Part shown: piece by piece, positions 45,751 to 54,235 of the stretch | Position numbering within the stretch: position 1 is the stretch's first letter | Layout of the letters: each line of letters starts with the position of its first letter | NCBI GenBank assembly: GCA_017550655.1 | Contig: JAFZOK010000018.1 | Location: 310,001-374,000, forward strand | DNA: 64,000 bases | Direction: 5' to 3' | Source of the DNA: Bacteroidales bacterium | GTDB taxonomy: Bacteria > Bacteroidota > Bacteroidia > Bacteroidales > UBA932 | The notes under the pieces: generated by a model | The model's database searches: none | What the model was told of the DNA's origin: nothing | The model's input: only the letters and a program-made list of their open reading frames with translations | Made by a program: the position numbers and the translations under genes

Positions 45751-46949
45751 TTCTCCGCCTTTAGTATGTCTATCGGGTTATTGTTGTCAAGTATAACGTG
45801 CATTGGTTCCGCCAGCTTCATTCCCAGGGAATTTGCTATTTGAATAAAATCATCCTTACTGCCAGCCGCAACAAGGTTGGAAGTCACGCTGTTGAATACT
45901 ATGCAGCCTCCTGGAGCAAGATGAGAGTGTACCTTACGCATAATCCCTTCCAGATGCCCGCCGTGCCCGCCTATGAAAGTGGCATCGCAGGTTTCATCTA
46001 TCTCAGTTTCAAGAAAATCACCGATATGGTATTCAATGCCCGGAGTAGAGAATTTCCTTGAATTGCTCTCCATAAGATCCTTGCCTTCCGGCCTTATTTC
46101 AAAAGCCTTAATGTCCAGATGCGGAAAGGCCAGCCTTGCCTCGATGCTGATGCTGCCGGTGCAGAAGCCAATATCCCAAAATGTCTTCCTTCTGTAAAGT
46201 TCAAGTGCCTGGAGAGTCAGAAGCCTTACCGGCATCTTGGTAATCATCTTCTGCCGTCCGTCCAGAAGATCGAACTCGCTTTCCGGAATCCCGAACCGCC
46301 TTGCGGGAGCATTGTCTTGTATTGTAAGTATCAGACAATTAGGGTTGGAGAAAGTTGCTTTTGAGGCGTCTTCTATACTCAGCGATGATATCTGCTCGCT
46401 TTCCGGATTTCCGAGGTGCTCGCCGATATGCATACTGTAGAAAGTGAAGCCGTAGTCCTTCATCCTGCGGGCAATCTCATCCGGAGTCTTCTTGCGGTCT
46501 GTAAGCAGTCCTATCTTTTCCCTGTGCTCAATCAGGGCATTGTCAAATTCCTTCCACGGCCGTCCGGTAAGGGATACGATGTGCATATCGTGATAAGGCA
46601 TCAGAAGCTTGTGGGCGAGAATCTGGAGAGAGTTGAAATAAGGATAGACTTTCATTGGAACATCCGGCATAACCCTTTGCAGAGTCGATGCAAAGCCAAA
46701 GAACAGAGGATCTCCTGAGGCAAAGACTATTATGTGGCAGTCTTCCTTGCGGTACTTTTCATAAACATCATCCAGCGGAACAGTTATGTCTATCCAAAGG
46801 CTGTCCCGGGGGAGCAGGCTCTCCACTATCTGGTGATGACGCTTTCCTCCTGAAAATACCCTTCCGCAAGAAATGGCATCCAGAGTCTCCCTGCTGAAAG
46901 AAGGCCTCGGATTGTCGCTCATCCCTATGACTGTGAAACTCAGTGCCAT
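45747..46949 (-). CDS. cbiET: Fused cobalt-precorrin-7 C5-methyltransferase (CbiE) and C15-methyltransferase/decarboxylase (CbiT)
   Basis: 400 residues. Residues 1-~200 are CbiE-type tetrapyrrole methyltransferase (VFASGDPLFFGF, SLTGRPWKEF). Residues ~205-400 are CbiT (KTFWDIGFCTGSISIEARL SAM site and GDFLETEIDETCDATFIGGHGG). Together they methylate C5 and C15 and decarboxylate the C12 side chain. CobL of the aerobic route is organised the same way. Its start overlaps the cbiH-C stop by one base, so translation is coupled. Cytoplasmic. Confidence 0.94.
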   Translation of the reverse strand: MALSFTVIGMSDNPRPSFSRETLDAISCGRVFSGGKRHHQIVESLLPRDSLWIDITVPLDDVYEKYRKEDCHIIVFASGDPLFFGFASTLQRVMPDVPMKVYPYFNSLQILAHKLLMPYHDMHIVSLTGRPWKEFDNALIEHREKIGLLTDRKKTPDEIARRMKDYGFTFYSMHIGEHLGNPESEQISSLSIEDASKATFSNPNCLILTIQDNAPARRFGIPESEFDLLDGRQKMITKMPVRLLTLQALELYRRKTFWDIGFCTGSISIEARLAFPHLDIKAFEIRPEGKDLMESNSRKFSTPGIEYHIGDFLETEIDETCDATFIGGHGGHLEGIMRKVHSHLAPGGCIVFNSVTSNLVAAGSKDDFIQIANSLGMKLAEPMHVILDNNNPIDILKAEK

Positions 46950-48352
46950 TACAGGTCCCTCCCCGGATTAAGGTTACGGGCATCGTCAAATGTCAGGACC
47001 GCGTTGCAGAGAGTTGCGGCAAGGTTGCTCCCGCCCTTTCTGCCCTTGACAATAATCTTTGGAATGTCCTTGAAAGGCAACAGCATGTGCTTGGATTCCT
47101 CCACGTGTACAAAGCCCACGGGAGCTGCAACAATTCCTGCAGGATGAGCCTTGCCCTGCCGGATCAGGTGGCATAGTTCCATAAGAGCCGTAGGAGCGTT
47201 TCCGAAAGCGAACAGTGCGTCAGGATGTTCCTCCACTGCCAGGCGTATTCCGGCCTGAGCCCTTGTAATGTTCTCTTGAGATGTCATTTGGGCGACTCTC
47301 GGATCCATCAGGTAGCACTTGGCCTCTATTCCAAGCCGTGAAAGTGCCCCCTTGCGGATTCCGGTTGCAGCCATAGTTACATCAGTGACAATTGTCTTGA
47401 GATCTCCCTTTGCCACCTTTTCATAGATCCTTTCCACTGCGTTCTCGTCCGTATAGAGAATCTTCTCCATCTCAAAGTCCGCCGTGGTATGTATGGCGTG
47501 AAGCAGAGCCCACTTATGCCCCAGAGGATAATCCGTTTGCCTGAGTTCAGAAGCAATTGTCCGGAAACTCTCGTTCATTATGTCCTGCCCGATTTTTCTT
47601 CCGGAAGTCTTCTCCTCAGAGTAATATCCCCTTGGAGTAATCATCTTTCCGCCGTCCAGATATGTCCTGGAATTGCCGATAATCAGCACAGTGAACATAT
47701 CCACATCCTCAGGATTAAGGGCGGAAAGCGTTGTTGTCCAGACCTTTTCATCTTCCCTTCCGGCCTGACGAACGCATCCCACAGGAGTATCGGCACTTCT
47801 TCCTTCCTCCAGAAATATCTCCACAAGGCGATAAAGCTGCCAGTAGCGTCCCTGGCTCTTCGGGTTATAGACAGCGGTAATGAAATCAGCCTGAGCAGCT
47901 GCCCTGATTCGCTTTTCAATCAGACTCCACGGAGTCATAAGGTCAGAAAGGGAAATCAGACAGAGATCGTGGCCTATTGGGGCTCCCAGCAAGGAGGCGG
48001 CTTTCTGGAACGCACTAATACCCGGAAGTGTCTCTATCTCCACATCAGCTCCGCTTACAGTCTTCATTTCCCAGAGCAACGGTGCCATACCGTATATTCC
48101 TGAGTCACCGCTGGATATGACGCACACATCCTTGCCTGACAGAGCCAGTTCCATAGCCTGTGCGGCACGGTCCCTTTCCTGGCGCATTCCGGTATCTATG
48201 CACTCGGCACCAGGCTTCAGATACTTCTCTATGAACCTGAAATAGTATTTGTAGCCCACAACCGCATCTGCCTTGGAAACAGCTTCTATGACTGCAGGAG
48301 TTATATCCTGCTGGCTTCCCGGACCTATGCCCGCAACAATGATCTTTCCCAT
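46949..48352 (-). CDS. cbiHC: Fused cobalt-precorrin-3 C17-methyltransferase (CbiH) and cobalt-precorrin-8 methylmutase (CbiC)
   Basis: 467 residues from the ATG at 48352. CbiH (1-~245): IIVAGIGPGSQQDITPAV, ISSGDSGIYGMA, TAVYNPKSQGR. CbiC (~255-467): ALLHAIHTTADFEM, VTDVTMAATGIRKG, FGNAPTALMEL, GFVHVEESK with the methylmutase His. The open frame continues upstream through a hairpin-repeat region, but that translation is repetitive and not CbiH-like, so it is excluded. First gene of the four-gene corrin-ring operon; its 377-nt upstream gap holds four hairpins and a branched inverted repeat. Confidence 0.94.
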   Translation of the reverse strand: MGKIIVAGIGPGSQQDITPAVIEAVSKADAVVGYKYYFRFIEKYLKPGAECIDTGMRQERDRAAQAMELALSGKDVCVISSGDSGIYGMAPLLWEMKTVSGADVEIETLPGISAFQKAASLLGAPIGHDLCLISLSDLMTPWSLIEKRIRAAAQADFITAVYNPKSQGRYWQLYRLVEIFLEEGRSADTPVGCVRQAGREDEKVWTTTLSALNPEDVDMFTVLIIGNSRTYLDGGKMITPRGYYSEEKTSGRKIGQDIMNESFRTIASELRQTDYPLGHKWALLHAIHTTADFEMEKILYTDENAVERIYEKVAKGDLKTIVTDVTMAATGIRKGALSRLGIEAKCYLMDPRVAQMTSQENITRAQAGIRLAVEEHPDALFAFGNAPTALMELCHLIRQGKAHPAGIVAAPVGFVHVEESKHMLLPFKDIPKIIVKGRKGGSNLAATLCNAVLTFDDARNLNPGRDL

Positions 48353-48405
48353 ATTCTTTGCAATGTAACACTTTTTACCGGAAGTCTGTCCTTTCACTAT
48401 ATACT

Positions 48406-48582
48406 GTTCCTGTCGTCCCGTTTTCTGTACCGACAGGAACATTTTCGGCCATTTTTGCTCCTGTCGTCCTACTTTTTGTGCCGACAGGAACACTTACCGC
48501 TCCTTCTGTCCTATTCTATGTGTCAGAAGGATCATTTCAGGGCATTTTTGCTCTCTCTGTCCCAATCTGTGTGTCAGAAGAA
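48406..48582 (-). repeat. Four tandem hairpins with covarying stems and a conserved 15-nt loop
   Basis: Four stem-loops lie in a row: 48407-48439, 48459-48489, 48501-48531 and 48552-48582. On the minus strand (cbi direction) the stems are TTCCTGTCG/CGACAGGAA in one, a similar stem in the next, TCCTTCTG/CAGAAGGA in the third and a weaker wobble stem in the fourth. Every loop is 15 nt, begins RYACA and ends GGA. Two of the three spacers share GCAAAAATG. Stem sequence changes on both sides keep pairing, which suggests the structure is selected. Location: leader of the corrin-ring operon. Confidence 0.75.
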
Positions 48583-48609
48583 TCACTAAGCAATATAAGT
48601 TGTACGCTT

Positions 48610-48728
48610 AAGAGCAGTCTGTCATATCCTATAGCCCTCGCTACGCTCGTCACGACCTGCCTGAAGTCAGGCCACCCATTCATGTGGCCATGGGCGGCCA
48701 CAGGCTCACGGATATGAAGACTGCTCTT
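48610..48728. repeat. 119-bp branched inverted repeat next to the second BtuB-like gene
   Basis: Outer arms AAGAGCAGTCT / AGACTGCTCTT plus TCATATCC / GGATATGA make a 19-bp stem with one bulged base. Inside are hairpins GCCTG-aagt-CAGGC (48659-48672 region) and GTGGCC-atgggc-GGCCAC (48684-48701), and the motif CTCGCTACGCTCG. It begins 1 nt beyond the stop codon of the upstream receptor gene. It may be a terminator or a palindromic intergenic element. It and the hairpin array account for most of the 377-nt gap. Confidence 0.7.
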
Positions 48729-48729
48729 C

Positions 48730-50784
48730 TTAGTCAAATAGTATTCTTAGGCCGGCAATTATCATACGGCCTGGAGAAAAGAGCGCATACTTCCTCAGCG
48801 ATGAATCCGGGCGGCTGTCCTTGCGGTCGAAAATGTTGTCCACCCCAAGGCTCGGCTCAATCACGAGCTTATCGCTGAGCCTGAATTTGTGGGTGGTATT
48901 GATATTCCAGAGTCCGTATCCCGGAGCGTTCTCGTAACCAGGATAATAAGTCTTGCTCTGGAGCCTTGCACTAAGCTGGATATTAAGGTCATACAATCCC
49001 CAGCTGTGGTGCCAGTCAGATGAAAGAGTCAGGGTGTTGCGCACGGAGCGCTCCAGGACAGACCACTCCTCCCCGCTCCTGGTCCTTGCGTAGTTCCACG
49101 CCCAGTTAAGGCCAAACTCCAGGTCTCTGGCAGCTATGGCGCTGATATTAAGGTTAAAACCCTGTACCCTACCCTTGTCGCTATTGGAGTACAGAGCGTA
49201 TTTTTCAAGTTTGGCGGCCTGTTCCTCAGTCATTTCCGGGAACATCGCCATCAGTTTTGCACGCATCGCATCATCTACCGCGATGTTATTCTTGATAATC
49301 ATTCCATCCACATAGTTCAGGAAACCGGTAGCCGAAACGGTAAGAAAGTCCGTGTGATATTCGGCATTGAGAGAGAAATAGTCTGAAGTTTCCGGTTTAA
49401 GATCCGTAGAACCGATGGAAATCTGGGGCTTGCCCCTGTAGAGGCTGAAATAGTTATAGTGGAGTTCATCCAGTCCCGGAGTGCGGAATCCCCGGCTGTA
49501 GGTAGCCCTGAAACGGAAATCCCCGGGAGAATACATCAAGGCGGCCTTAGGGGAGAAATTGCTTCCGAAATCCTGGTGGGCTGTGAGTCTTGCTCCGGCA
49601 GTAAGGCTCAGGCCCTTTACAATGGTCATCTCGTGCTGGAGATAAGCCGCGAATGTGTTTGCTCCGTTGTCAATGTTTCCGCTGGAAGACTCCAGTTCAT
49701 CTCTGCGAAAGTCTATTCCGGCAATGGAAGTGCTGGTTGGAGTCAAGTGCATAATACCCTGGAGATTCCCCGAATAAGCCTCCTGTTTCTTTGAACGGGT
49801 GTAATCCCCTTTTTGGTATGTCTTGCCGTCTACCCGGTACTCTCTGCCGTAGCGGTAGCGGTCTGCATCCAGATTAAGCTGGATCGAATAGTTCCTGTTG
49901 AACTTGTAGATTCCCCCGGCACTTGCCTTGGCTCCGCGATACCGCATTTCGTAATCGGTGCCACCGCTAACATCTTCCCTAGTGCGCGGACGGGAGGTAA
50001 TCTTGTCGTAATAGTCGAATCCGGCGTTCATCGCCAGGCTCTTGGAGGCTTTGAAAGACAGCCTCTCGGAGAAATTGTTAGCCCTGTATCCGGAGAAAAG
50101 AGGAGCGATTGTTCTCTGGAGGACAGTCTCCCCGTCTTTTGTCACTTCTTCATAGACGTTGTTGGAGAAGCTGTCTGCCCTGCTGTGGGAGAAGGAGGTG
50201 GCAGAGTTAACTCCCCCTTTTCCCACATTCAGGCTGGCAGACTGGACAAACCGGCCCTTTCCCGAGGCAGAGGTTTGGGATCGGGCGCTGACATTGTCCG
50301 TGGTGCGGTCATCGGTGATGATATTGATAACTCCACCGATAGCATCTGATCCGTAAAGGGATGAAGCGGCGCCGTCAAGAACCTCGATTCTCTTGACCCT
50401 TGAGAGGTCTATCCGGTCGAGATCCACATTGCCGGCCATATCGCCGATTATTCTCCTCCCGTTTACGAGTATAAGGGCATACTTGTTTCCCAATCCGTTA
50501 AGCCTCAGGAAGTTTCCCATAGAGGACGGAGTCATCTGGATCTGCGGAAGCATCTTTATCAGAGCGTCCTTCAGACTGGTGATTCCCTGCTCCCTGATAT
50601 GGGCTGCGGAAAGCACCCTCACCGGAGATGCCGTGCTTTTCAGCCTCTGGTGATGGCCGCTTCCCGTTACCACAATCGGATTCAGCTTGCTGGCCTTTGA
50701 TGTGTCAGAAGATGTATGTATCTGGCCGTAAGCTGCTGCCGAGCAAAACAGAACTATGGTAAACAGTATTGCCCTTACGTTCAT
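48730..50784 (-). CDS. TonB-dependent receptor, BtuB-like (second copy)
   Basis: 684 residues. Signal peptide MNVRAILFTIVLFCSAAAYG, plug domain at ~30-150 (LNPIVVTGSGHHQRLKSTAS, LRLNGLGNKYALILVNGRR, LDGAASSLYGSDAIGGVINI), then a beta-barrel ending in GRMIIAGLRILFD. The YALILVNGRRI and SLYGSDAIGGVIN blocks match BtuB and related receptors. It follows an exported CbiK-like gene by 15 nt, so it is probably on the riboswitch-controlled transcript. The ligand is probably a corrinoid or another tetrapyrrole; it is diverged from the first receptor of the unit. Confidence 0.88.
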   Translation of the reverse strand: MNVRAILFTIVLFCSAAAYGQIHTSSDTSKASKLNPIVVTGSGHHQRLKSTASPVRVLSAAHIREQGITSLKDALIKMLPQIQMTPSSMGNFLRLNGLGNKYALILVNGRRIIGDMAGNVDLDRIDLSRVKRIEVLDGAASSLYGSDAIGGVINIITDDRTTDNVSARSQTSASGKGRFVQSASLNVGKGGVNSATSFSHSRADSFSNNVYEEVTKDGETVLQRTIAPLFSGYRANNFSERLSFKASKSLAMNAGFDYYDKITSRPRTREDVSGGTDYEMRYRGAKASAGGIYKFNRNYSIQLNLDADRYRYGREYRVDGKTYQKGDYTRSKKQEAYSGNLQGIMHLTPTSTSIAGIDFRRDELESSSGNIDNGANTFAAYLQHEMTIVKGLSLTAGARLTAHQDFGSNFSPKAALMYSPGDFRFRATYSRGFRTPGLDELHYNYFSLYRGKPQISIGSTDLKPETSDYFSLNAEYHTDFLTVSATGFLNYVDGMIIKNNIAVDDAMRAKLMAMFPEMTEEQAAKLEKYALYSNSDKGRVQGFNLNISAIAARDLEFGLNWAWNYARTRSGEEWSVLERSVRNTLTLSSDWHHSWGLYDLNIQLSARLQSKTYYPGYENAPGYGLWNINTTHKFRLSDKLVIEPSLGVDNIFDRKDSRPDSSLRKYALFSPGRMIIAGLRILFD

Positions 50785-53998: not shown

Positions 53999-54059
53999 TG
54001 TGCAATATTTTCTCTGATCGCCGAGGCTCTTCTTCCTGAGAGGCGGCCACTCGAAACGA

Positions 54060-54226
54060 GGCAGGCAGGTCTTCTGACTCTTCCCATCTGTTACACCTTC
54101 CCGGAGAATTCCAGTGGCATTAAAGTAACAGACACAAGACGGGAAATACAGCTGCAGGTACAGTTCCGGCCTTTCACCGGATTCCCTTTCACCGGAATGA
54201 AAATCACGCCGGTTACCTGAATCACC
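54060..54226 (-). promoter_or_regulatory. Cobalamin (AdoCbl-type) riboswitch
   Basis: Minus-strand aptamer with the conserved parts in order: GGTGAAAGGGAATCCGGTG, the GCCACTGG core with CGGGAAGGTGT, and the B12 box AGTCAGAAGACCTGCC at ~54064-54079. It sits between a -7 box and the btuB start, about 60 nt before the ATG. When cobalamin is plentiful it should lower expression of btuB and the linked cbiK and second receptor. Confidence 0.94.
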
Positions 54227-54227
54227 G

Positions 54228-54235
54228 CAAATGTA
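54228..54235 (-). promoter_or_regulatory. btuB promoter (-7 element)
   Basis: Minus-strand TACATTTG with a TTG ~21 nt upstream; transcription would start at the 5' edge of the cobalamin aptamer. Confidence 0.65.

Follow-up and report, generated by a model that had tools for sequence, protein, structure and literature searches.

What are four similar hairpins doing in the gap between a btuB-like receptor gene and the corrin-ring gene cbiH of a gut Bacteroidales bacterium? They lie in a stretch of 64,000 nt that was analysed as a whole (the window). A sequence-only reading had placed them in the leader of the cbiH-C operon, as a possible cis-regulatory element or repeated protein-binding module, and had named a dispersed intergenic repeat with no role in B12 control as its main alternative. 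The hairpins themselves are where that reading put them. There are four, with a common 15-nt loop and differing stems, the arms that it named are exact, and the array extends to 48587.

The array occupies 48403-48587 on the minus strand, which is the sense strand of the flanking genes (Table 1). Read on this strand, the hairpin unit is an 11-bp stem around a 15-nt loop, RYACAN7GGA. The units lie at 48405-48441, 48456-48492, 48498-48534 and 48549-48585, with start-to-start spacings of 51, 42 and 51 nt, and form two 92-nt dimers (u4-u3 and u2-u1) whose stems differ by compensatory changes. The arms TTCCTGTCG/CGACAGGAA of u1 and TCCTTCTG/CAGAAGGA of u3 pair exactly, and the stem of u2 differs from that of u1 at a single position. 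Unit u4 is imperfect and its nine pairs are not formed as such in minimum-energy folds. The spacer of dimer u4-u3 is A-rich on the sense strand, as is that of u2-u1. Possibly the latter is also the loop of an alternative hairpin built from the arms of the neighbouring units, comparable to the 26-nt offset hairpins described below. Elsewhere in the genome (L030/L058, L057, L052, L060) some spacers are A-rich and others T-rich on the loop strand; the orientation of the spacer is thus not fixed to that of the loop. A 514-aa ORF (GTG 48493) appears to extend cbiH back through two units, which it can do because the repeat keeps frame; the cbiH start shared by relatives is ATG 48352.

Table 1. The hairpin array and its surroundings (window coordinates).
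Feature	Coordinates	Strand	Basis or remark
cbiH-type corrin-ring gene, downstream of array, start ATG 48352 (name from the sequence-only reading)	46949..48352	-	context, outside the element
Unit u1: hairpin, 11-bp stem TGTTCCTGTCG/CGACAGGAACA, loop GTACAGAAAACGGGA	48403..48443	-	R1 54.6 bits, E 2.9e-14
14-nt spacer inside dimer u2-u1, A-rich on sense strand	48442..48455	-	sequence
Unit u2: hairpin, GTCG/CGAC subfamily, dimer partner of u1	48454..48494	-	R1 51.8 bits
Unit u3: hairpin, TCCTTCTG/CAGAAGGA subfamily	48496..48536	-	R1 54.4 bits
14-nt spacer inside dimer u4-u3	48535..48548	-	sequence
Unit u4: imperfect hairpin, dimer partner of u3	48547..48587	-	R1 51.3 bits; 9 pairs
Second dispersed element: conserved ~70-nt core in ~20-bp inverted repeat	48610..48728	-	own copies L143-L148; relatives L251-L278
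TonB-dependent-receptor-like gene, btuB-like by reading, upstream of array	48730..50784	-	adjacency kept in 12 same-genus relatives
Cobalamin riboswitch, upstream of receptor/cbi gene run	54047..54235	-	RF00174, 85.3 bits

On either strand, the array region has a much better fold than its dinucleotide shuffles (z -5.1 and -5.3), none of 200 being as good. The claim that a conserved loop with compensatory stems marks a hairpin structure is borne out by 45 units of the same genome, 44 of them distinct (two of 47 were left out of the alignment, one indel-shifted and one degenerate). In these, 54 cells are changed on both sides versus 28.8 in shuffles, with 0/500 shuffles as high, and 87% of cells are paired versus 31-56% when slid. 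A smaller set of 20 units gave 22 both-side-changed cells versus 11.1. Two other measures on the 45 units, the number of pairs with a double change (7; 91/500 shuffles as high) and of further pair types (18; 115/500), are not above shuffles. The compensated variation is concentrated in four pairs adjoining the loop-closing pair.

Could the array be a cis-regulatory RNA leader of the corrin operon? Its position on the sense strand, about 50-235 nt ahead of cbiH, and its good folding speak for this. However, it is absent from all 12 same-genus relatives found with a receptor gene before cbiH, and in nine of these the gap is shorter than about 45 nt. On this ground a conserved operon leader was rejected. 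In addition, two genomes (G015 and G022) have a cobalamin riboswitch directly before cbiH, and in the window such a riboswitch stands upstream of the gene run (Table 1). Rfam gave no match at the gathering score at the array, where a single sub-threshold match appeared at E<=10 (E 0.19, 17.6 of 50 bits); a known RNA family was set aside, the three sub-threshold matches in 48300-48800 at E<=10 being taken as chance. When the covariance model of the hairpin (R1, see below) was run over 17 cbiH loci, it matched its own locus and, weakly and partially, one other (L140; E 0.03).

The three longer receptor-cbiH gaps of relatives hold other repeats. Two contain the second element of Table 1 (G047 and G016, in G016 in the other orientation). 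The third, in G043, contains a hairpin with a TCCAGGTG stem, and the same stem flanks one of that genome's own RAYTs (REP-associated tyrosine transposases; L182, assigned by coordinates). The gap in the window, 48353-48729, holds the R1 array and the second element. Different repeats have therefore entered the same btuB-cbiH gap.

The second element has features of its own. Its core runs GCCTGTGGCCGCCCATGGCC...GAGCGAAGCGAG, and the enclosing arms mostly differ from copy to copy: within a copy, the left and right arms match with a median score of 32.5, whereas arms taken from different copies reach 12 (among the 32 rows, two are one place and one has no arms). Double changes occur in 6 of 18 predicted core pairs in an alignment of 22 of the 32 rows. 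The element is present in 9 of 39 genus genomes, and no Rfam match came near the gathering score. Convergent genes flank 15 of 27 copies, so the arms may serve as terminator stems that carry the core in their loop.

How widely is the hairpin itself dispersed? A plain DNA search of its own genome returned 18 rows for the repeat. R1, which was built from 20 units, returned 49 at E<=0.1, three of which are the opposite strand of listed units. This leaves at least 46 distinct places, a lower bound because 150 of 929 first-look candidates were scored. Forty-five of them are grouped in 19 arrays, each with one to five units and usually a 51-nt step, and the 46th (on contig C8) belongs to another stem family. 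In the window, R1 matches only the four units, plus one of them on the opposite strand. At E<=0.001 there are matches in 5 of 41 genomes (own included) and in 7 of 23 further ones, all of the same genus. Further copies thus exist both in this genome and in its congeners. The genes beside the copies are unrelated, and some copies lie inside two reading frames. Together with the relatives that lack the array, this makes a leader role very improbable, and the part of the sequence-only reading that concerned control of the corrin operon is not supported. At the cbi locus the array would have inserted between two cistrons, and whatever it did to the mRNA would be incidental.

The copies inside genes also show presence and absence between close relatives. 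They lie in a 613-aa GH3-like protein and a 334-aa ferredoxin-reductase-like protein (names from a reading of the sequence), and both are in-frame insertions. Frame is kept because 51 nt is 17 codons without stops. Among 11 relatives compared, only G047 gave a full-length single match, and in the other ten the match is split around the array. Aligned relatives without the segment are L230 and L232 for the first gene and L241, L243 and L245 for the second; the ORF pattern gave 3 and 5 of the 11 relatives, respectively, the rest depending on split matches. A comparable segment occupies the in-gene sites of G047, and in the second gene a different short segment is present in G043. The insertions carry extra non-repeat sequence at their ends, which obscures the exact ends, the target site and any target duplication. 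At one and the same position of the reductase-like gene (L053:4569-4711; L240 of G047), two related species have in-frame hairpin insertions of different sequence. This position is a repeated target.

The other 17 of the 19 arrays are intergenic. Eight lie between co-directional genes on the gene strand and three on the opposite strand; three are between convergent and two between divergent genes, and one is unclear. A gene 3' end is no more than 25 nt away in 11 of the 17. The window array is 142 nt from one because the second element intervenes. What if the hairpins act mainly as RNA, as stabilisers of mRNA 3' ends or intercistronic regions or as pause or termination elements kept by host selection? 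The closeness to gene 3' ends would suit this, and so would strand: the loop strand coincides with the gene strand in both in-gene arrays and in 8 of the 11 that lie between co-directional genes. Nevertheless, three of the 11 arrays are antisense, presence between close relatives is patchy, and in the window the sense strand has A-runs rather than U-runs after the hairpins (TTTT spacers occur in some other arrays). Moreover, around RAYT genes the stem sequence follows the RAYT, as described below. The strand bias was rejected as proof of an RNA role, 10 of 13 being too weak; in this count an overlapping 126-aa antisense ORF was disregarded for one array. A mainly RNA-based function is therefore unlikely. 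An RNA role as such is compatible with a mobile origin, however, as REPs can have both roles.

A mobile origin is suggested by what lies between two arrays of similar hairpins at another place in the genome (L052; G000:C15:547383-548246). This is a gene for an HUH-tyrosine protein of ~290 aa, a relative of the RAYTs. In relatives G020 and G003 (L064, L068) the same kind of gene directly adjoins an array, and the proteins have in common an SNHVH motif and a downstream Tyr motif. The NCBIfam model REP_Tyr_transpos (NF047646) matches the L052 protein with E 2.4e-10 over 137 of 146 model positions, below the curated cut-off. Its matches to the genome's three paralogs, L052 included (E 2.4e-10, 6.7e-7 and 5e-11), cover most of the model and reach 29-43 bits against a cut-off of 80. 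The Pfam family Y1_Tnp (PF01797) is weak and exceeds its cut-off in one of the three, and IS200-type transposases were reached by a PDB profile search at no better than E 0.2. A PF01797 scan of the genome picked up the RAYT paralogs L009 and L010 and the more distant L011, and missed the cognate RAYT at 547383, which was later found via its array.

Each full paralog has hairpins of its own. With the L052 protein as query (100%), the other two are 55 and 51% identical. The second is flanked by CTGTCAGGTCCC...GGGACCTAGCAG hairpins with a 52-nt step, and the third is followed by GATGCCGGT...GGGAC...ACCGGCATC hairpins about 51 nt apart. No R1-type units lie near L009, L010 or L011, which by itself would argue against a link to RAYTs, but L009 and L010 have their own, different hairpins. 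In the Y...NP motif the L052 protein and L010 have NP and L009 and L068 have NS; none of five proteins compared has a W between HUH and Tyr. The RAYT-like gene L011 (G000:C30:327386; 201 aa) has long palindromes of another kind on either side. Yet another tandem family of hairpins in this genome, with a GTGCAAGGTG stem, is found at and around L062:2911-2951 (G000:C8); it resembles the hairpins flanking RAYTs of G018, G045 and G053 (L096-L098), and it was not seen beside any of the genome's three full RAYT paralogs.

To which RAYT do the window hairpins belong? The stem of u3 and u4 (TCCTTCTG) is similar, not identical, to that flanking the L052 gene. The GTCG/CGAC type of u2 flanks a RAYT of relative G047 (L079; L157), where the u1/u2 stem (CCTGTCG/CGACAGG) recurs with a similar loop in one unit. 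Since the two dimers resemble hairpins of two different RAYTs, their compensatory difference is probably a boundary between two element subfamilies. The L157 protein shares 53% identity with the L052 protein and likewise 53% with the L010 paralog, and the window's genome, which is 88% complete, shows no closer copy of it, a point against the explanation given below. Units u1 and u2 may therefore be orphans; alternatively, the missing part of the genome may contain their gene.

A wider survey points the same way. When contigs of genomes were scanned with these proteins, 279 places matched, and the best 80 of the 279 were kept. Judged by title, every one of the 80 is an uncultured or MAG record from Bacteroidales or Bacteroidia (Prevotellaceae in one case), and a ruminant stomach sample is named in 40. 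At each of the 80 loci an open frame contains the SNHxH motif. A hairpin of fixed geometry, defined as 11-bp arms (score 9 or more) around a 15-nt inner segment within 500 nt upstream or 300 nt downstream, is present at 66 of the 80, compared with 7 on average when the flanks are shuffled and with 15 among 79 control pieces of the window. It is upstream in 50 cases, downstream in 47 and on both sides in 31. The 14 loci without this geometry, and the 15 control pieces that have it by chance or otherwise, count against a tie between gene and hairpin. Distances between hairpin centres peak at 26 (35 cases), 51 (33) and 52 nt (21), and the 26-nt distance is that of the alternative hairpin from the arms of neighbouring units. 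In 53 non-redundant loci, almost all Watson-Crick combinations occur at stem pairs 2-9, and there is little change in the G-C pair that closes the loop or in the terminal G-C and T-A pairs; as pairing was a selection criterion, only the diversity of pair types counts as evidence here.

The stems also follow the proteins. RAYT distance correlates with stem distance over the 61 of 80 loci used with a hairpin (r 0.34, p 0.0005) and over the 53 that remain after dropping RAYTs more than 85% identical (r 0.35). Pairs with similar outer flanks were removed to lessen shared locus ancestry, the similarity being judged by DNA only. This left r 0.30 (permutation p 0.0002; 1795 of 1830 pairs) in a set of all 61 loci that includes near-identical contig ends such as L163/L164. 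Without flank-similar pairs, the mean stem distance is 0.13 for 22 pairs at a RAYT distance of 0.20-0.35 versus 0.50 at 0.45-0.55. Co-occurrence agrees. Among 39 genus genomes, nine have both R1 hairpins and a close RAYT, three and three have one of the two and 24 have neither (Fisher p 1.7e-4, a value inflated by genome relatedness, with some R1 matches weak). The thresholds (RAYT E<=1e-78, R1 E<=0.001) were chosen after seeing the results, and the R1 filters were stricter for the first genome set than for the second. G004, G016 and G048 have an R1 match and no close RAYT, G013, G018 and G042 the reverse; in G045 and G053, R1 matches weakly (E 5e-4 to 8e-4).

Perhaps the RAYT is a bystander and the hairpins are a miniature transposon of another transposase class, such as a DDE element. 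Dimer ends often read AGTG...CACT, like short terminal inverted repeats. Against this, arrays of every size from one to five units occur, and many RAYTs, though divergent, carry hairpins of this geometry with matching stems in their flanks, which leaves a foreign transposase highly unlikely. The best explanation, with a probability of about 0.86, sees the window hairpins as two dimers of a dispersed, REP-like element that RAYTs specific for stem and loop would spread. The L052 RAYT-like protein would recognise the folded, single-stranded hairpin by its stem sequence and GGGA-containing loop, cut the single strand next to it and spread copies, often just 3' of genes. Each RAYT lineage would have its own stem. 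This would be why stems differ, and both arms would change together because the folded hairpin is what is recognised. The alternative named by the sequence-only reading, a dispersed intergenic repeat without a role in B12 control, was thus the right one, with a cognate RAYT-like gene now added. The hairpin structure and the repeated module that this reading described survive as well, and the module is probably recognised by a protein; only regulation of the corrin operon found no support, the array being absent from the 12 relatives.

A broader proposal has roughly even odds. Uncultured, largely ruminant Bacteroidales may have a distinct RAYT class in which recognition uses, in place of a GTAG foot, a tag at the loop edge (GGGA or GTCC/GGAC) together with a stem that is free to diversify, each enzyme lineage having its own stem 'barcode'. 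In that case there would be a natural lock-and-key library of HUH enzymes and their hairpins, perhaps hundreds of pairs. The best 80 of the 279 matched loci give many enzyme-hairpin pairs, with different stems and a common geometry, and therefore the recognition rule could be readable from natural covariation and testable by hairpin swaps. There is also a caution: covariation of a hairpin in the leader of an operon does not by itself make it a regulator.

How does the element compare with known systems, as far as the parts of three papers drawn on here describe them? REPs, REPINs and BIMEs form REPtrons with their RAYT (TnpAREP) genes (PMC6006769; PMC3733652; PMC8266576). Like the present hairpins, they are short palindromes with many intergenic copies and clustered units. 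They often follow coding regions, with some in genes, they flank a cognate HUH-tyrosine gene, and each RAYT has its specific repeat family. Canonical REPs show the same preference for sites near gene 3' ends (PMC3733652). Correspondingly, the hairpin is a short palindrome in many dispersed, mainly intergenic copies (at least 46 places; 17 of 19 arrays), its RAYT is flanked by its own family (L052 on both sides; 66 of 80 loci with the geometry, 31 on both sides) and the protein has the HUH motif and catalytic tyrosine of RAYT/TnpAREP (class 2 TnpAY1). However, canonical REPs are defined by a GT[AG]G foot (PMC6006769), and the present hairpins have neither this nor CGTC: no such foot is in the consensus of 45 units (AnTGCTCC...GGAGCAnT, including two bases outside the stem on each side), nor was one seen by eye in the array flanks. 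They differ further in a conserved tag at the edge of the 15-nt inner segment (GGGA, or TCC...GGA / GTCC...GGAC in other lineages), in a 51-52-nt tandem period and in having some tens of copies. Rickettsia palindromic elements (PMC3733652) likewise lie inside coding genes, but are of the CGTC type. A literature search found no description of these hairpins or their geometry, a weak result with most subscription papers and supplementary files outside its scope.

The proteins also fall between described groups. In an alignment of 48 of the 80 RAYTs, SNH[VLI]H is present in all 48 rows and the Tyr column is invariant. NP follows in 10 of 46 rows that match the Y---NP pattern, the others having NS or NC, and any W between HUH and Tyr occurs in only 9 of 46, so that the W[EQ] motif is missing. 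This would fit hairpins without GTAG. The choice of hairpin by RAYTs is known from a few proteobacterial pairs, which rely on GTAG to differing degrees, and loop bases matter for some (PMC8266576). TnpAY1 subclass 2.6 resembles the present system in its Bacteroidetes hosts, in NH[LIV]H and in flanking 'atypical secondary structures' with copies elsewhere in the genome, but has a median length of 179 aa, YIH[QN]NP and WQ, whereas the present proteins have about 290 aa, Y-x-x-M-N-[SCP] and no conserved W[EQ] (PMC6006769). The structures of subclass 2.6 may be identical to the present hairpins. Subclass 2.1 (Bertels group 1 in a table of PMC6006769) shares NHVH and a long protein with a C-terminal extension (median 238 aa). 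The same source gives atypical structures for the short subclass 2.6 and none for the long subclass 2.1, which it reports without any REP; here, in contrast, hairpins flank most genes examined. As there is no GTAG foot and no conserved W[EQ], and NP is present in the cognate protein and in a minority of rows, the element is called REP-like here, with a RAYT-like partner, and is not classed with the canonical GTAG or CGTC REPs.
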